Of a DNA stretch of 64,000 nucleotides, positions 13,986-23,490 are shown in pieces. The position numbers and the translations under genes are program-made. The DNA is from Streptomyces sp. SCL15-4 (GTDB lineage: Bacteria > Actinomycetota > Actinomycetes > Streptomycetales > Streptomycetaceae), in the NCBI RefSeq assembly GCF_033366695.1, contig NZ_JAOBTQ010000001.1, positions 1,550,001 to 1,614,000 on the forward strand, given 5' to 3'. The notes under the pieces are model-generated. The model was not told the DNA's origin. It saw only the letters and a list, made by a program, of their open reading frames with translations, and ran no database searches. Each line of letters starts with the position of its first letter. Positions within the stretch are counted from its first letter, which is position 1.

Positions 13986-14513
13986 TCAGCGGAGCTGCCG
14001 CGCCAGCAGGTCTACGGCCAGGCCGGCGAGGACGTCGGGAGCCGGCGTCGCGTCGAGCTCGGCTCCCGGCTCGTCCGGTTCGAGGGGTTCGAGCGTGGCA
14101 AGCTGCGAGTCGAGGAGCGAGCTCGGCATGAAGTGGCCGGTGCGTCCGCCGATCCGGTCCGCCAGCACTTCGCGGCTGGCGATCAGGTGCAGGAAGAATG
14201 CGCCCGGGCAGGCCGCTCGCAGGATGTCCCGGTAGCGCCGCCTGAGCGCGGAGCAGGCGACCACCGCACCGGTGCCCGCCACGTCCCGCTGGTGCAGCCA
14301 GCGGCCGACGGACTCCAGCCAGGGGCGGCGGTCGGCGTCGTCGAGCGGCGTACCGGCCGACATCTTGGTGATGTCGGCCGCCGAGTGGAAGTCGTCGCCG
14401 TCCGCGAAGGGCACGCCCAACCGCTGTGCCAGCAGGCGGGCCACCGTGGTCTTGCCGATCCCTGCGACGCCCGTGACGACGACGCACGGGGACCGGCGCT
14501 CAGCGCGGTCCAT
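13986..14513 (-). CDS. gntK: gluconokinase
   Basis: A 175-residue gluconokinase of the shikimate-kinase-like P-loop type, which phosphorylates gluconate to 6-phosphogluconate. The P-loop is VVTGVAGIGKTTVA. FADGDDFHSAADITKMSAG is the characteristic gluconate-binding and Asp-containing stretch, and VACSALRRRYRDILR carries the conserved Arg cluster. HFMPSSLLDSQLATLEPLE is the family's C-terminal signature. Its start overlaps the end of the Zwf-like gene by 14 bases, so the two are coupled. Gluconate is not the product of a true glucose-6-phosphate dehydrogenase, which makes this pairing informative about the neighbour. Confidence 0.93.
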   Translation of the reverse strand: MDRAERRSPCVVVTGVAGIGKTTVARLLAQRLGVPFADGDDFHSAADITKMSAGTPLDDADRRPWLESVGRWLHQRDVAGTGAVVACSALRRRYRDILRAACPGAFFLHLIASREVLADRIGGRTGHFMPSSLLDSQLATLEPLEPDEPGAELDATPAPDVLAGLAVDLLARQLR

Positions 14514-15933
14514 CTTCCGGTAGCGCTTCGGGGTGCAGCAGGTCGCTGCGCCGCCGTTGGGCGCCCTCGTGCGGCCGGGGAGGCGGACCGTCGGAGCCGG
14601 CCGGATACTCCTCCAGCGGGACCAGGTTGCTCTCCCATGCGCTCAGGACGGGGGCCAGGACCCGCCATGCCTCCTCGGCCTCGTCGCCCCGGATGGACAG
14701 GGCGGGATCACCCTTCATGACGTCCAGAAGGAGCCGGCCGTAGGCGGGCAGGTCGGGCGGTTCCATCCGGGCTGTCAACGAGAGCTGGGTGAGAGCCTGG
14801 GCGCGTGCGCCGATGCCCGTCATGTCGAGGGTCATCCCTTCCGGCTCCAGCCCGAAGCGCAGCACGTTGGGCTCGGCCTGGCCTTCGTGACCGAAGGGCA
14901 GATGGGGCACGGAGCGGAAGCGCACCGCGACCTCCTTGCGGTCCCGTCCGAGCGCCTTGCCGCTGCGCAGCCGGAACATCGTCCCCGACCAGCGCCAACT
15001 GTCCAGTTCCAGTTCGACCTCGGCGAAGGTCTCCGTGCGTCGCCCGGGGTCCACGCCCTCCTCGTCGACGTATGCGGGGACATCGCGGCCGCCGATCCGG
15101 CCGGACAGGTAGCGTGCGCGGCGTGTGCGGTGCACGACGTCGTAGTCGGTGAGGAGCCGCACGGACCGCAGCACGTCGACCTTCCGGTCGCGCAGGTCCC
15201 GCTCGCCGAGGGTGATCGGGGGTTCCATGGCCACGAGGCACAGCAGTTGCAGCAGGTGGTTCTGCACCATGTCCTTCAGCGCGCCGACGCCGTCGTAGTA
15301 GCCGGCGCGGCCTTCCAGGGCGAGGGTCTCGTCCCAGACGATCTCGATGTCCGCGATGTGAGTGCTGTTCCAGATGGGCTCCAGCATCCGGTTGGCGAGC
15401 CGGCTTCCGAGGACGTTCTGGACGGTCGTCATGGCGAGGAAGTGATCGACCCGGAACACCGCCTGTTCGGGCACGAGACCGGCGAGCAGCCGGTTGAGCC
15501 GGTGCGCGCTCGCCAGGTCCTCGCCGAACGGCTTCTCCAGAACGATCCGGCTGCCCGGCGGCAGGCCGGCCTCGTGCAGGGCCGTGACCACGTGCGGGAA
15601 GAGTGCCGGGGGAAGGGCGAGATACACGGCGATCGGGTCGTCGCCGACGACGACGGCGGCGACGTCCGCTGGATCGGTGACGTCGGCCCGCCGGTAGTGG
15701 GCCGAAGCCGCGACGGCCGTCCTCGCCTCGACAGGGCAGGAGCCGCCGTGGCGGTCGAGCTGGTCGGTGCACCACCAGCGGAAGCGGTCGGTGTCCCAGC
15801 CTTCCCTGCTCGCGCCGGTCAGCCGGAAGCCGTCGTCGATGTGTCCCGCGGCCCGCAGCGCGGCCAGGGCCGGCAGGAGGTAGCGGGCGGTGAGGTCGCC
15901 TGTCGCGCCGAAGACGGCGAGCCGCTTGATCAT
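14500..15933 (-). CDS. zwf: glucose-6-phosphate dehydrogenase homologue with altered active-site signature
   Basis: A 477-residue member of the Zwf family. It has the nucleotide-binding GATGDLT (9-15), the EKPFGEDL motif (133-140), the catalytic-base region KDMVQNHLLQ (His226) and RSGKAL near the C-terminus. The family signature DHYLGK(E/Q/K) instead reads DHFLAMT at 163-169. The His stays, but Tyr, Gly, Lys and the last acidic residue are changed; in characterised enzymes the Tyr and Lys help bind the 6-phosphate. It may therefore prefer a substrate other than glucose 6-phosphate, possibly free glucose. ATG 15933 overlaps the GH15 stop (ATGA). The symbol marks homology, not proven function. 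Confidence 0.85.
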   Translation of the reverse strand: MIKRLAVFGATGDLTARYLLPALAALRAAGHIDDGFRLTGASREGWDTDRFRWWCTDQLDRHGGSCPVEARTAVAASAHYRRADVTDPADVAAVVVGDDPIAVYLALPPALFPHVVTALHEAGLPPGSRIVLEKPFGEDLASAHRLNRLLAGLVPEQAVFRVDHFLAMTTVQNVLGSRLANRMLEPIWNSTHIADIEIVWDETLALEGRAGYYDGVGALKDMVQNHLLQLLCLVAMEPPITLGERDLRDRKVDVLRSVRLLTDYDVVHRTRRARYLSGRIGGRDVPAYVDEEGVDPGRRTETFAEVELELDSWRWSGTMFRLRSGKALGRDRKEVAVRFRSVPHLPFGHEGQAEPNVLRFGLEPEGMTLDMTGIGARAQALTQLSLTARMEPPDLPAYGRLLLDVMKGDPALSIRGDEAEEAWRVLAPVLSAWESNLVPLEEYPAGSDGPPPRPHEGAQRRRSDLLHPEALPEDGPR

Positions 15934-17777
15934 GTCCGTGTGCCTGCCTTCGCTCGGGCGAGGTTCACGCCGCTGGCGATGATCCCGATGTGGCTGAACG
16001 CCTGGGGGAAGTTGCCCATGAACTCTCCAGTGCTGGGCTCGATCTGTTCCGGCAGTAGTCCGAGCGTGCTGGCACGGGCGCACAGCGAGGTGTACACCTT
16101 CTCGGCCTCCTCGATCCGGCCCTGGGCGGTCAGGTTGTCGGCCAGCCAGAAGCTGCACAGCACGAAGCCGCCCTCGTCGCCGGGCAGGCCGTCGGGCGAC
16201 TCCTCGTGGAGGTAGCGGTAGAGCAGGCCGTCGCCGGCCGACAGGCGTTCGGCCACGGCCGTGGTGGTCGCGGCCATCCGCGGGTGGTCGGCCGGCACCA
16301 CGTGGCGCAGCGGGAGCGCGAGCAGGCTCGCGTCGAGCGCGCCGCCGCCGTCCAGGTGCGCGCTCAGCGTCTGCGCGTCCTCGTCCCAGGACTCCTCCAG
16401 GATGCGCCGGCGCAGCCGGTCGGCCGAGGCACGCCAGGCTGTGGTCGGCCCGGGCAGTCCGAGCCGCTCGCCGATGTCCGCGGCCCGGGCCAGGGCCACC
16501 TGGCACATGCCGGCCGAGTACGTGAACACCCGACCGTCGCTGCGTACCTCCCAGATTCCCTGGTCCGGCCGGCGCCACGCCCGCCCCGCGGTTTCGGCCA
16601 GCTCCGCCAGGCCCGCCCACAGCGCGGGCTGCACCTCACGGCCGGAGCGCAGCCACTGGTCGGTGCGCAGCCACTGGTCGGCGCAGTCCAGGATCTCGCC
16701 GTAGACGTCGTGCTGGCGCTGATCGGCCGCGCCGTTGCCCCACCGCACCGGACCGGAGCGGCGGTACCCCTCCAGCTCGGTGTCCTCGATCTCCTCGGGC
16801 ACGGGGCCGCCATCGAGGTTGTACATGATCCGGGGGCTGCGGCTCTGCTCAACGGCGTCGAGGACCCAGCCGAGGAAGGCGTCCGCCTCGCCGGTGAAGC
16901 CGACGCGCCGCAGGGCGAACACGGCGTAGGCGGCGTCGCGGATCCAGGCGTAGCGGTAGTCCCAGTTGCGGACTCCGCCGACCGGCGCGGGCAGGGAGGA
17001 GGTGGGCGCCGCGACGACGGCGCCGTTGGTCCAGTCGTCGCACAGTTTCAGAGTGACGGCGGCACGCCGGACCAGTGCCTCCTGGGGACCGGAGTAGTCG
17101 AAGTGTCTCATCCAGCGCCGCCAGGCGTCGGCGGTGTCCGTGAGCATCGTGTCGGTCCGGAACCGGTGGTGGCGGTGGAAGCGGCCCCAGGACAGGACGA
17201 GGTCGAGGTGTTCGCCCTGTCGCAGGTCCTGGGTGCTGTGCAGGCCGGGCAGGGGGTGATTGGAGCGCAGGTGCAGGCGCAGGTCCGGCCGGCGAGAGGG
17301 TCGCAGTTCCAGGCCGCTGAAAAGCGTCTGGGTCGTGCCGCCGCCACGGGGCTCCAGGTCCACCCGCAGCCGCACGTGTCCGGAGAGGACCACGGCCGAC
17401 CGGACGAGCTCGCACCGTCCGGCTGGGGAGTCCTCGGTGAGGTCGGCGCCGGTGCGCACGGTCAGCGCGTCGGTGACCCGTACCAGGCCGGTGGTACTGC
17501 GCATCTCGGTGGTGAGTACACCGGTGTCGGGTTCGTAGCGCTGGCGGGCCTCCACCAGGTCCTGCGGCGCGAGGGTGAAATGGCCGCCTCGTGCGTGGTC
17601 CAGCAGGCCGCAGAACAGGGGGTCGGAGTCGAAACGGGGCAGGCACATCCACGGGATCGAACCGTCCAGGCCGACCAACGCGGCCGTCGTACCGTCCCCG
17701 ATGAGGCCGAGGTCCTCCAGCGGCAGGTAGCCCTCGCGCCTGCGGACCGGGCGGAACGGGGGGTCGGGATCGTGCAT
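15930..17777 (-). CDS. glycoside hydrolase family 15 protein (glucoamylase/trehalase-like)
   Basis: A 615-residue GH15 enzyme. An N-terminal beta-sandwich opens with GYLPLEDLGLIGDGTTAALV and SIPWMCLPRFDSDPLFCGLL. It is followed by an (alpha/alpha)6 barrel with VRNWDYRYAWIRDAAYAVFA (substrate-binding Arg/Trp/Asp) and FVLCSFWLADNLTAQGR near the end, holding the region of the catalytic base. Family members release glucose from alpha-glucans, and some actinobacterial ones are trehalases. No signal peptide is visible, so it acts inside the cell. An in-frame 18-bp tandem duplication lies at 16647-16682. It overlaps the zwf-like gene by four bases. Confidence 0.92.
   Translation of the reverse strand: MHDPDPPFRPVRRREGYLPLEDLGLIGDGTTAALVGLDGSIPWMCLPRFDSDPLFCGLLDHARGGHFTLAPQDLVEARQRYEPDTGVLTTEMRSTTGLVRVTDALTVRTGADLTEDSPAGRCELVRSAVVLSGHVRLRVDLEPRGGGTTQTLFSGLELRPSRRPDLRLHLRSNHPLPGLHSTQDLRQGEHLDLVLSWGRFHRHHRFRTDTMLTDTADAWRRWMRHFDYSGPQEALVRRAAVTLKLCDDWTNGAVVAAPTSSLPAPVGGVRNWDYRYAWIRDAAYAVFALRRVGFTGEADAFLGWVLDAVEQSRSPRIMYNLDGGPVPEEIEDTELEGYRRSGPVRWGNGAADQRQHDVYGEILDCADQWLRTDQWLRSGREVQPALWAGLAELAETAGRAWRRPDQGIWEVRSDGRVFTYSAGMCQVALARAADIGERLGLPGPTTAWRASADRLRRRILEESWDEDAQTLSAHLDGGGALDASLLALPLRHVVPADHPRMAATTTAVAERLSAGDGLLYRYLHEESPDGLPGDEGGFVLCSFWLADNLTAQGRIEEAEKVYTSLCARASTLGLLPEQIEPSTGEFMGNFPQAFSHIGIIASGVNLARAKAGTRT
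16647..16682 (-). repeat. in-frame 18-bp tandem duplication inside the GH15 gene
   Basis: Two adjacent copies of GCGCAGCCACTGGTCGG(T/C) differ at one base. In the protein they give DQWLR-TDQWLR near residues 366-377, six extra residues at a helix boundary. Because the frame is kept, the gene stays intact. A recent replication slippage is likely, and its variability between strains is unknown. Confidence 0.8.
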
Positions 17778-17846: not shown

Positions 17847-18896
17847 CTAGAAAGTGATCAGCACCTTCACGACGTCTTCGAGCTTCTTGTCCGCGACCTC
17901 GAAGGCCCGCTCCATGTCGTCGAAGGAGAACGTGTGGGTGGTCATGCGCGTGGGGTCGATGCGCTTCGCCTCCACTACGCGCAGCAGCCGTTCCATGCGG
18001 AGCCGGCCTCCGGGGCAGAGCCCGGTCGCGATGGTCTGGTCCGCCATGCCGACGCCCCATTCGACGCGGGGGATGCTGATGAACTCGCCCTCGCCGAAGT
18101 AGCCGATGTTGGAGATGGTGCCGCCGGGCTTGGTGATCTTCACAGCGGTCTGGAACGTGATGTCCGCGCCCAGGGCCTCGATGGCGGTGTCGACCCCTTC
18201 TCCACCGGTCAGCTCACGGACCCGCTCGACGACGTCCTCGCTGGTGAAGTCCACGATCTCATCGGCGCCGTACTCGCGCGCCAGTTTCTGCCGACTGGGG
18301 ACCGACTCGACCCCGATGACCCGGCCGGCGCCGCGGAGCCTGGCCCCCGCCGTGGCCATCAGGCCCACCGGTCCCTGCGCGAGGACGGCGACCGTCCCGC
18401 CGATCGGGATGTTGCCCTTCTCCGCTCCCATGAATCCCGTCGACAGCATGTCGGCGCAGTAGACCGCCACGTCGTCACCGATCGTGTCGGGGATCCCGGC
18501 GAGATTGGCGTCGGCGTCGTTGACGTGGAAGTAATCGGCGAAGACCCCGTCCTTGCGGTTGGCGAACTTGAACCCGCCGAGCGGTCCGCCCGACTGCGAC
18601 GGGAACCCGTTCTGGGAGGCCATGTCGCCCCAGTCGGGGGTGATGGCGCCGACCAGCACGCGGTCGCCGGGCCGGAATTCCTTCACCTCGCTGCCCACCG
18701 CGTGCACGATGCCGACGGCTTCGTGGCCCAGCGTCAGGTTCTTCCTCGGGCCGATGCCGCCGTGAACGGTGTGGGAATCGGATGTGCAGATCAGGGCACT
18801 GGTCGTCCGCACCACCGCGTCGCCTGGGCCCGGCTCCGGAACGGGCTTCTCCATGAAGCCCGTCCGTCCGATTTCCTTCATCACGAACGCCTTCAT
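17847..18896 (-). CDS. NAD(P)-dependent secondary alcohol dehydrogenase (zinc, TbADH/CbADH-like)
   Basis: A 349-residue medium-chain zinc dehydrogenase closest to the clostridial and thermoanaerobacter isopropanol dehydrogenases. It starts MKAFVMKEIGRTGFMEKPVP. The catalytic zinc ligands are Cys in ALICTSDSHT, His/Glu in LGHEAVGIV and Asp in VYCADMLSTG. The PRVEWGVGMADQTI and TGLCPGGRLRMERLL stretches match that subgroup. As in that subgroup, the four-cysteine structural zinc loop appears absent. Start 18896 (with GGAGG upstream) fits the homologues better than 18923. It heads the GH15-zwf-gntK group, 69 bases before GH15. The substrate is unknown. Confidence 0.88.
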   Translation of the reverse strand: MKAFVMKEIGRTGFMEKPVPEPGPGDAVVRTTSALICTSDSHTVHGGIGPRKNLTLGHEAVGIVHAVGSEVKEFRPGDRVLVGAITPDWGDMASQNGFPSQSGGPLGGFKFANRKDGVFADYFHVNDADANLAGIPDTIGDDVAVYCADMLSTGFMGAEKGNIPIGGTVAVLAQGPVGLMATAGARLRGAGRVIGVESVPSRQKLAREYGADEIVDFTSEDVVERVRELTGGEGVDTAIEALGADITFQTAVKITKPGGTISNIGYFGEGEFISIPRVEWGVGMADQTIATGLCPGGRLRMERLLRVVEAKRIDPTRMTTHTFSFDDMERAFEVADKKLEDVVKVLITF

Positions 18897-19182
18897 CCGC
18901 CCGCCCTTCCTCCACCGGCTCACTGCCGGCCGCGACGACGGTGAGCCGGCCGCATCGACTCCGGTCTTGGCGTCAGCTCTTCACTCCTGCCACTGTCGCA
19001 GGGTCCGAGTCCGCTCGCGACTCGACCGGACGATGCCCGGTCAGGCGACGCGGGCGTGCGGAAGGGTTCGGTGAAATGGCCTCGGTGAGGTGACCTGGGT
19101 GACACGCCTGTCCCGGTACTGGCCCCGGCGGCGAAAGCGGCCCTGCCGGCGTCGGGCCACGCGCGCGAGGGCGGAGGACGCT

Positions 19183-20075
19183 GTGGGTGACGAACGCACG
19201 GATCGAGCCTTCATCAGATCGTTCACATCATCGGGTGGCCGCGGCATCGTGGTGGCCGCCGTGCATCCGAAGACGGGAGCGCTGACCGAAATCGGCGTTG
19301 TCGATGCCCTACCGGACCCGTCCTACCTGACTGCCGATCACGACCGGTCCTCTACACCGTCTCCGAGACGGCACAGGGCTCGGTCGCCGCCTACGACATC
19401 GCCGATCCCGAACCGCGACCCCTCGAGGTCCCCGTGGCAGTGCGAGGGGATGCGCCCACCCAGCTGTCGGTGGTGCGTGGTCACCGCTGACCGCCAATCA
19501 CGCCTCCCGGCAGCGTCACCGTGCTCTCCCTCGCCGCCGACGGCGGCCTGCGAACCACCGGGGACGTGCGGCACTACACGGGCAGCGGACCTGACCCCGC
19601 CCGCCAGTCCGGCCGCGTCACCTGGCCTTCCGGCCGTCCGGAAGCCACGCCCGCGTTCTCGGAGAACTCGATGCGGCCGTCACCGTGTGCCGCTGGGACG
19701 CCGCCGCCGGCGTGCTCGAACCGGTGGGCACGGCACTCTCGTTCCCGGGTGGCACCGACGAGGCCGTCTCTCCCCCGGCACCGGTCGTCTCACCCGACGG
19801 CCGCCGTCTGTGGGCGGCGGTCCGCGGCACCGGCACCATCACCGTCCTTGCGCTCGACGCGACCGGCGAGCGAGCGGAGTCGGTCGCGTCGGTTCCGTGC
19901 GGAGGTCGATGGCCGCGCGACCTGGTCCTGCACCGTTCCGGCGCGCGGCTGTACGCGGCCGACGAACGCTCAAGCGACGTCACACGGCTGGACCCGGACC
20001 CCGCGACCGGCGTCCCGCGACGCGCCGGTTCCCTGCCGGTGCCGGCGGCGTCCGGCACCGTGATCGCCCGACGGC
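19183..20075 (+). pseudogene. lactonase (YbhE/Pgl-type beta-propeller), frameshifted and internally deleted
   Basis: Three different frames carry consecutive pieces of one seven-bladed lactonase. Frame one gives FIRSFTSSGGRGIVVAAVHP to YLTADHD (19183-19343). A second gives VLYTVSETAQGSVAAYDIA up to a stop at 19488, then SVTVLSLAADGGLRTTG. A third gives LGELDAAVTVCRWDAAAG through CGGRWPRDLVLHRSGARLY to VPAAS near 20065. At least two frameshifts, one stop and a missing middle section are needed to explain this. The intact family hydrolyses 6-phosphogluconolactone or similar lactones. It lies just beyond the alcohol-dehydrogenase/zwf/gntK operon, where a lactonase would make metabolic sense. Confidence 0.85.
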
Positions 20076-20098: not shown

Positions 20099-20908
20099 TC
20101 AGGATCCGCCGCGGACGACGGCGACCGGGCAGTGCGCGTGGTGCAACAGCACCTGGCTGACCGACCCCAGGAGCATCCCGGAAAACCCGCCGCGCCCCCT
20201 GGCGCCGGCCACCATCAATTGGGCGCTCCTGCTGGCCTGGACCAGGACCTCGCGGGTCTCGCCGCTAAGCACTTCCTGTCGGACCGTCACGTCCGGACAG
20301 CTCTCCGCGCGTCCGGCGACCGCCTGGGCCAGCAGGCGCTCCGGGCTCTCCACGCCCGTACCGGCCGGTGCGTGGTCCGGCAGCCACGCGTGCACGGCGA
20401 CGAGGTCGGATCCCCGCCTCTCCGCCTCGGCGAAGGCGAATTCGACCGCCTTCTCGCCCTCTGGGGAGCCGTCGACGGCCAGCACGACGGGCCCGGAGCA
20501 GTCCGGCTCCTCGCGGATCACCAGCACCGGACAGTGGCTGTGGGCGGCCAGGGATACCGCCGTCGAGCCCAGCAGCATGCCGACGAAGCCCCCGATGCCC
20601 CGGCGGCCGACGACCACGAGGTCCGCGGCGCGCGACTCGGCCACCAGCACCGACACCGCACCGCCGATCATCACGGCTTCGTCGACCTTCACCCCGGGCG
20701 CCACACGCCGAGCATCCTGTGCGGCGTCGTGCGCCAGCATGTTGAGCGGCGACGGGTCCAGCGGTGCGTACATGGGCCCGACCGGCCAGCTGAAGGCGTG
20801 CACCACACGCAGCTCCGCACCGCGCCGCTCAGCCTCCCGAGCGGCCTGAACCACCGCGGCATGGCTCGACGACGAGCCGTCCACACCTACGACGACCATG
20901 CTGCCCAC
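20099..20908 (-). CDS. universal stress protein, tandem UspA domains
   Basis: A 269-residue protein with two Usp domains. The first runs from MVVVGVDGSSSSHAAVVQAA to HCPVLVIRE. The second starts VVLAVDGSPEGEKAVEFAFA and contains GARGRGGFSGMLLGSVSQ. Both halves keep the ATP-binding G-2x-G-9x-G(S/T) pattern (GRRGIGG...GST and GARGRGG...GSV). The GTG start has AAGGAGG just before it. It overlaps the end of the preceding secreted-protein frame by about 22 bases. Family roles are in survival under starvation, hypoxia or oxidative stress. Confidence 0.92.
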   Translation of the reverse strand: MGSMVVVGVDGSSSSHAAVVQAAREAERRGAELRVVHAFSWPVGPMYAPLDPSPLNMLAHDAAQDARRVAPGVKVDEAVMIGGAVSVLVAESRAADLVVVGRRGIGGFVGMLLGSTAVSLAAHSHCPVLVIREEPDCSGPVVLAVDGSPEGEKAVEFAFAEAERRGSDLVAVHAWLPDHAPAGTGVESPERLLAQAVAGRAESCPDVTVRQEVLSGETREVLVQASRSAQLMVAGARGRGGFSGMLLGSVSQVLLHHAHCPVAVVRGGS

Positions 20909-22782: not shown

Positions 22783-23490
22783 ATGACGATCGCAACGGAA
22801 CAGTCCCGCACGTACGGCTACGACGACCTGCCCCGGCTGATGGCCCTGATGACCGGCGACGAGAAGCACGGCCCGGCGGCCACCTCCACGCTCGACGTGC
22901 TGTGGGTGCTCTACGACCGCGTGCTGCGGGTCACTCCCGAGCGGCGCACCGACCCCGGCCGGGACCGCTTCCTGCTCAGCAAGGGGCACGGGCCCATGGC
23001 CTACTACGCCGTGCTGGCCGCGAAGGGCTTCGTGCCCGTGGAGTGGCTGCCGGGGTTCGGGACGTACGACTCCCCGCTCGGGCACCATCCGGACCGGGTG
23101 CTCGTGCCGGGCGCCGAGATCGGCAGCGGGTCGCTCGGGCACGGGCTGCCGATCGGCGTGGGCACCGCGCTGGGCCTGCGCGCCCAGGGCCTGACCGATC
23201 CGGCGGTCTGGGTGCTGACCGGGGACGCCGAACTGGACGAGGGCAGCAACCACGAGGCGATCGCCTTCGCCGGGCCCGCCGGGCTGGACCGGCTGCACAC
23301 CGTCGTGATCGACAACTCCTCCGCCAGCCACGCGCTGCCCGGAGGCGTCGCCGCCCGGTTCCAGGCCGCCGGCTGGTCCGCGGTGACCGTGGACGGCCGC
23401 GACCACGAGGCCCTGTACGCCGCGTTCACCGCGCCGCATCCGGGCCGGCCGCACGTCGTCGTGGCCCGTGTCGAACCGAAGAACTCCTGA
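22783..23490 (+). CDS. transketolase, N-terminal (thiamine-diphosphate) subunit
   Basis: A 235-residue protein equal to the N-terminal third of transketolase. The segment RDRFLLSKGHGPMAYYAVLA and the diphosphate/metal motif GDAELDEGSNHEAI (GDG-type, here GDA) are present, as is IGSGSLGHGLPIGVG. In split transketolases the other subunit provides the pyrimidine-binding half. The ATG has no visible ribosome site, and a MerR/SoxR-like promoter lies immediately upstream. Transfer of two-carbon ketol units in the pentose phosphate pathway is the family reaction; the substrates of this pair are unknown. Confidence 0.9.
   Translation: MTIATEQSRTYGYDDLPRLMALMTGDEKHGPAATSTLDVLWVLYDRVLRVTPERRTDPGRDRFLLSKGHGPMAYYAVLAAKGFVPVEWLPGFGTYDSPLGHHPDRVLVPGAEIGSGSLGHGLPIGVGTALGLRAQGLTDPAVWVLTGDAELDEGSNHEAIAFAGPAGLDRLHTVVIDNSSASHALPGGVAARFQAAGWSAVTVDGRDHEALYAAFTAPHPGRPHVVVARVEPKNS

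Follow-up and report, generated by a model that had tools for sequence, protein, structure and literature searches.

In the genome of Streptomyces sp. SCL15-4, a homologue of the glucose-6-phosphate dehydrogenase (G6PDH) Zwf is encoded between a glycoside hydrolase and a gluconokinase. The locus raises the question of whether this protein oxidises glucose 6-phosphate, as its family name implies, or an unphosphorylated sugar freed by the glycoside hydrolase. The window, that is, the whole stretch of DNA analysed here, is 64,000 nucleotides long. It belongs to a genome of 8.4 Mb whose closest named relative among the matches listed is Streptomyces flaveolus (Zwf 98% identical).

Table 1. Positions of the zwf variant, its key codons and its neighbours in the window
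Feature	Position	Strand	Remarks
GntK/IdnK-type gluconokinase (gntK)	13986..14513	-	TIGR01313; 14-base overlap with zwf
zwf homologue, proposed free-glucose dehydrogenase	14500..15933	-	477 aa; start Met at 15933, last base of stop codon at 14500; G6PD_N and G6PD_C found by domain search; predicted structure with mean pLDDT 90 and the fold of solved G6PDHs
Codon for Asp331	14941..14943	-	aligned place of human Arg365
Codons for DHFLAMT (residues 163-169)	15427..15447	-	Phe165 at the place of human Tyr202, Met168 at that of human Lys205
GH15 glycoside hydrolase with TREH_N	15930..17777	-	Glyco_hydro_15 and TREH_N; 4-base overlap with zwf
Zinc-dependent alcohol dehydrogenase	17847..18923	-	69 bases upstream of GH15
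Broken PF10282-type lactonase (7-bladed)	19204..20050	+	matching pieces in three frames; divergent

The zwf variant and its neighbours in the window

The order on the minus strand is GH15, zwf variant, gntK, and the two overlaps are of the lengths given in the initial annotation. Such overlaps are common among co-translated genes. The DHFLAMT motif pointed out there is indeed encoded, and RIDHYLGKE, quoted as the G6PDH signature in PMC12429737, is not found in the protein. With the TIGR00871 zwf model the protein scores 386.2 bits, below the cut-off of 400.6, and with NF009492, also named G6PDH, it scores 532 bits, above the cut-off of 428. NF009492 was rejected as a marker of the subfamily; it does not discriminate, as 3 of 4 canonical Zwf tested also pass. 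Two canonical zwf genes, both with DHYLGK, are located elsewhere in the genome, making three Zwf-family genes in total. In a study of 31 bacterial G6PDHs, paralogues are said to occur only in Proteobacteria (PMC4807051); given the three Zwf-family genes in this genome, the restriction as worded there does not hold.

The GH15 gene exceeds the cut-offs of PF00723 (194 bits; cut-off 22) and TREH_N (50 bits; cut-off 23.1). It is far under the cut-offs of the archaeal trehalase models NF041084 and NF041085 and matches none of the bacterial trehalase models. The gntK product scores 169.3 bits with TIGR01313 (cut-off 113.75). A second gluconokinase over the cut-off and three further GH15 genes are encoded elsewhere in the genome. 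Aldonate dehydratase, KDG kinase and KDPG aldolase were not found near the zwf variant of the window by tblastn with baits. The zinc-dependent alcohol dehydrogenase upstream of GH15 may be a member of the pathway. The lactonase pseudogene described initially as lying next door is real, but it is divergent and located beyond the alcohol dehydrogenase gene, not adjoining zwf.

Two other features were observed farther along the window. A two-domain universal stress protein is encoded at 20099-20908 (-), and its relatives are present near many variant loci. At 22783-23490 (+), the N-terminal half of a transketolase forms a separate ORF, with an apparent C-terminal half right downstream in another frame, which reads like a split two-gene transketolase.

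Residues of the phosphate site and extent of the subfamily

The Asp200/His263 dyad and the ring contacts at 171, 239, 258 and 360 (human numbering; for some of these positions we presume the role) are all found in the window protein. The alignment of 109 actinobacterial variants and 30 canonical Zwf shows no exchange at any catalytic or sugar-ring position. His201 and the EKP lysine are also retained, the latter in all 109 variants. L129 (381 aa, start not placed) was left out of these residue counts, and the 109 correspond to 108 distinct sequences, as L075, L076 and L077 have an identical Zwf that is counted three times. These three records, titled Geodermatophilus and two Blastococcus, also share the same neighbourhood; recent transfer, mislabelling and contamination are alternative explanations.

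Contacts to the 6-phosphate in G6PDH are named in PMC11448927, and Tyr202, Lys205 and Arg365 are not found in the window protein. Tyr202 is present in none of the 109 variants (30/30 canonical Zwf), Lys205 in 7 (30/30 canonical), and Arg or Lys at 365 in 4 (29/30 canonical). Asp replaces Arg365 in 88 of the 109. The charges at 205 and 365 are both gone in 98 variants; among the canonical proteins, 1 of 30 is short of one. The initial annotation took the altered DHYLGK as its pointer, which is not decisive alone. M. avium G6PDH (4LGV), deposited as G6PDH, reads DHFLGK and resembles the variant in its DHF, with Phe202, but has Lys at both 205 and 365, and the loss of DHYLGK was therefore rejected as a diagnostic. 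Judged from the aligned sequences, the diagnostic change is the joint loss of the phosphate-site charges at 205 and 365. The window protein matches 4LGV with 209 bits and the Zymomonas enzyme with 315 bits.

A charge at 205 or 365 is still present in 11 of the 109 variants. A listed partner gene is located near 2 of these 11, compared with 86 of the remaining 98. Among the deep members alone, a partner is near 11 of 18 with both charges lost and 2 of 11 with one kept, which is a trend. As 11 members keep a charge and few of them have a partner, the clade may be mixed, with deep members perhaps including true G6PDHs. The cut-off of TIGR00871 is passed by 3 (L118, L121, and L137) of the 4-6 deep variants scanned. 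NF009492 (PRK12853.1-3), the curated equivalog that gives the variants their G6PDH name, fits L133-type sequences best (706 bits), and both lysines are present in these sequences. G6PDH names assigned to variants through this model may be wrong. Arg43, which corresponds to human Arg72 close to the 2'-phosphate of NADP, occurs in 72 of 80 close members and in 22 of 29 deep ones; this would fit NADP as the coenzyme, although it is not decisive.

DHFLAM is common to all 120 homologues listed (the best 120 of 7948 over the E-value limit), so a mutation or sequencing error confined to the window is rejected. Of 235 related genome loci, the best 80 all have this motif as well. Names among the matches listed include Rubrobacter, Egicoccus, and Allonocardiopsis. 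Among 396 genomes drawn evenly across the phylum, 31 (the own genome counted) have a variant match of at least 384 bits, not including G264 with its partial match of 321 bits, and the other matches listed reach at most 330 bits. At least two Zwf-family matches are present in 28 of the 31 variant genomes, and the variant therefore need not supply G6PDH. A tree built from 43 variant and 30 canonical rows separates all the variants from the rest by a branch supported with SH-aLRT 100; the rows were chosen by score, and the tree shows a clean split rather than an unbiased sample.

Gene neighbourhoods of variant and canonical zwf

Neighbours within 6 kb were counted by tblastn with baits at 110 variant loci, consisting of the 80 close loci and 30 deep loci from the phylum search, and at 30 canonical loci. 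The baits were drawn from these same loci and may therefore fail to detect remote partners, and contig ends truncate some of the loci. The variant loci share kinship, and counts across related genomes are not independent.

A count of GH15 and gntK around the variant and around canonical Zwf had been suggested at the outset, and it separates the two. GH15 is found at 78 of 110 variant loci, including two opposite-strand matches with 34-40% identity (L129 and L143), and at 1 of 30 canonical loci. It lies upstream on the same strand, at most 60 bases from the variant, in 74 of the 110, and the tight adjacency is seen again in separate deep branches (L115, L117, L120, L131, and L138). The gntK gene is found at 31 variant loci, 30 of them among the 80 close ones, and at none of the 30 canonical loci; in 28 of the 110 it is downstream of the variant within 130 bases. 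Also seen at variant loci and at 0 of 30 canonical loci are an IlvD/Edd-type dehydratase (20/110, one of them, in L044, with 44% identity), a 7-bladed lactonase (15 of the 80 close loci), a PfkB-type kinase (6/110), KDPG aldolase (6/110), GH65 (4/110) and SMP-30 lactonase (3/110). A relative of the alcohol dehydrogenase accompanies the variant at 38 of 110 loci and canonical zwf at 2 of 30. The genes typical of canonical loci show the opposite distribution: transaldolase (tal, 0/110 versus 28/30), transketolase (tkt, one weak match with 26% identity in 110 versus 26/30), DevB-type lactonase (pgl, 0/110 versus 25/30), opcA (0/110 versus 23/30), gnd (0/110 versus 13/30) and pgi (0/110 versus 9/30). 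No listed partner is present within 6 kb in 21 of the 110 variant loci.

Gluconokinase was the partner named in the initial annotation, which would have counted against its own proposal a prevalence of DHFLAM-type proteins without it. It is in fact absent from most DHFLAM loci (present in 30 of 80). With gntK at 31 of 110 loci and a gluconokinase over the cut-off in 4 of the 31 variant genomes, a universal partnership is rejected. However, 19 of the 50 close loci without gluconokinase bear an IlvD/Edd-type dehydratase instead. The two genes occur together in L024 alone, with 29 gntK-only and 19 dehydratase-only loci among the 80 (p 0.0004). For the 32 Streptomyces-placed loci, the corresponding numbers are 1, 18, and 6 (p 0.01).

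The dehydratases are of more than one kind. That of L051 passes PRK13017, and its matches to solved structures are galactonate dehydratase (854 bits), Caulobacter IlvD/Edd (807 bits), and 6-phosphogluconate dehydratase (126 bits). That of L031 is another kind and passes no listed cut-off. A D-2-hydroxyacid dehydrogenase gene follows the dehydratase gene in both loci (L051:7838-9004 (+) and L031:9161-10180 (+)); 2-hydroxyacid dehydrogenase is found at 20 of 110 variant and 0 of 30 canonical loci.

Runs resembling a complete route were observed in some relatives. In L082 (Nocardia gamkensis), GH15 and the variant stand in a single run with genes for a dehydratase, a 2-hydroxyacid dehydrogenase and a KDPG aldolase that exceeds the TIGR01182 cut-off, together with a PfkB gene resembling KDG kinase (under the equivalog cut-offs). 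L121-L124 (family f18, Rubrobacter-like judging from a contig on which a named protein is also encoded) combine the variant with GH65, a KDG-kinase-like gene and a GlcP-like sugar porter that stays below the GlcP equivalog cut-off. Three of these four have KDPG aldolase (L123 is cut off by the end of its contig); genes resembling beta-phosphoglucomutase and ROK glucokinase are present in three, and a trehalose-phosphatase-like gene in three. L122 also has an enolase-superfamily sugar-acid dehydratase, under the equivalog cut-offs. Aldonate dehydratase, KDG kinase, and KDPG aldolase are jointly present in L082 and L122. GH65 includes phosphorylases and hydrolases (PMC8626586), and an enzyme of either kind would free glucose from a glucose disaccharide.

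Proposed reaction and alternative explanations

We consider it fairly likely that the zwf variant is an NAD(P)-dependent glucose 1-dehydrogenase which arose within the G6PDH family and whose sugar acid exits to central metabolism. Its substrate, coenzyme, direction, and pathway are what we infer. The protein retains the fold, the Asp-His dyad and the ring-holding residues, with a 6-phosphate pocket rebuilt by the changes of Tyr to Phe, Lys to Met, and Arg to Asp. The enzyme of the overlapping GH15 gene, as an inverting alpha-glucosidase, would free beta-glucose, and the variant would oxidise it to the lactone. The lactone would open spontaneously or through a lactonase to gluconate, and gluconokinase would convert this to 6-phosphogluconate, skipping glucokinase and canonical Zwf. 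GH15 trehalase inverts, giving one alpha- and one beta-glucose (PMC10969515), and the substrate anomer of G6PDH is beta-glucose 6-phosphate (PMC11448927); thus, GH15 could pass beta-glucose to the variant. In other lineages, the variant would feed a dehydratase, KDG kinase, and KDPG aldolase, as in a semi-phosphorylative Entner-Doudoroff pathway. The phosphate transferred by GntK and KDG kinase goes onto O6, which must therefore be unphosphorylated in their substrate. A sulfoquinovose-type route with a 6-sulfo sugar was set aside by reasoning, as both kinases require a free O6. The scheme initially annotated, in which an unphosphorylated sugar is freed by the glucosidase, oxidised by the Zwf variant and returned as a sugar acid, is well supported at the sequence level by residue conservation and by the neighbourhoods compared with the canonical control, but gluconokinase is only one of several exits.

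The variant is a G6PDH by fold and descent, but probably not by its reaction. We lean slightly towards a wider claim: the Actinomycetota-wide "G6PDH" subfamily would be a separate glucose dehydrogenase class and, with GH15 or GH65, would form an intracellular route from trehalose or alpha-glucan to gluconate. This route would have two interchangeable exits, gluconokinase to 6-phosphogluconate, or aldonate dehydratase with KDG kinase and KDPG aldolase, alongside the canonical pentose phosphate pathway.

The minority status of gluconokinase, the partnerless loci, the charge-keeping members and the deep variants passing TIGR00871 count against the glucose dehydrogenase reading. The variant could still be a G6PDH, or a dual enzyme, with an altered phosphate pocket, and the operon would then supply glucose to a glucokinase acting elsewhere. 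Such an enzyme would be consistent with the retention of His201 and all ring contacts, Phe202 in 4LGV, the NF009492 name, and the charge kept in 11 members. It is nevertheless unlikely: both charges are absent in the great majority of members, mostly with Asp for Arg365, the pentose phosphate partners are absent, and an adjoining gluconokinase, aldonate dehydratase or KDG kinase would make no sense after 6-phosphogluconolactone. An equally low probability is given to the oxidation of another unphosphorylated aldose or a small oligosaccharide, such as galactose, xylose or maltose. GH15 and GH65 act on alpha-glucosides, and gluconokinase, KDG kinase, KDPG aldolase, and the GlcP-like porter all fit glucose and recur across separate lineages, although the enzymes that the dehydratase matches best, galactonate dehydratase and Caulobacter IlvD/Edd, are not gluconate-specific, and the trehalase function of GH15 is tentative. 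In human G6PD, Lys205 is important not only in binding but also in catalysis (PMC12429737), and a protein that lacks it could be poorly active. That the variant is a Zwf paralogue with little or no catalytic activity, serving a regulatory or structural role, is, however, very improbable: all 109 members retain the dyad, the EKP lysine and the ring contacts, and the genes linked to the variant are those of glucosidases and sugar-acid enzymes rather than canonical zwf or opcA.

The proposed glucose dehydrogenase differs from known systems in several respects. Canonical Zwf (Zymomonas 7XHL and L. mesenteroides 1DPG/1E77) differ from it at 202, 205, and 365 and in their pentose phosphate neighbours. 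Human 8EM2 (hexose-6-phosphate dehydrogenase/GDH-6PGL), which we take to be a G6PDH-family enzyme that also accepts free glucose, is eukaryotic, fused to 6-phosphogluconolactonase and distant from the window protein (109 bits). In the semi-phosphorylative Entner-Doudoroff pathway, known from archaea, glucose oxidation is followed by dehydratase, KDG kinase, and KDPG aldolase, and the same kinds of genes are found in L082 and L121-L124; here, the first enzyme is of the G6PDH family, and the window itself has gluconokinase. Methanotrophs likewise convert free glucose through gluconate to 6-phosphogluconate, reportedly with a dehydrogenase of another family. Their route consists of glucose dehydrogenase and gluconokinase (PMC8062543) and, unlike the variant, is not known to be linked to GH15. 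Glucose oxidation followed by gluconokinase and the semi-phosphorylative Entner-Doudoroff pathway are thus already known. In a literature search with most subscription journals outside its scope, no title or abstract among the best-matching papers names this subfamily or gene cluster, and none describes a G6PDH subfamily of bacteria that is dedicated to free glucose and linked with GH15.

Zwf is a textbook enzyme, and its name is passed on automatically. Should glucose 6-phosphate not be the substrate of the subfamily, a wrong reaction has entered the metabolic models of many actinobacteria, among them Streptomyces, Nocardia, and Nonomuraea. If it is a glucose dehydrogenase, these models miss an NAD(P)H-making glucose oxidation without ATP cost before oxidation. 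The exchange of two or three phosphate contacts would then have turned a sugar-phosphate enzyme into one for free sugars, and members keeping one charge would be natural intermediates.

The distribution of KDPG aldolase was compared among the 35 genomes of one family with a Zwf match. Of the 11 genomes with the variant, 6 have it, compared with 4 of the 24 others (p 0.04; a weak test); within genera g111 and g118 of that family, it is present in 4 of 4 variant genomes and in 1 of the 12 that lack the variant (p 0.003; also a weak test). An aldose 1-epimerase gene is located directly upstream of one deep variant zwf (L141:9386-10297 (-)), and it would suit a free-sugar substrate.
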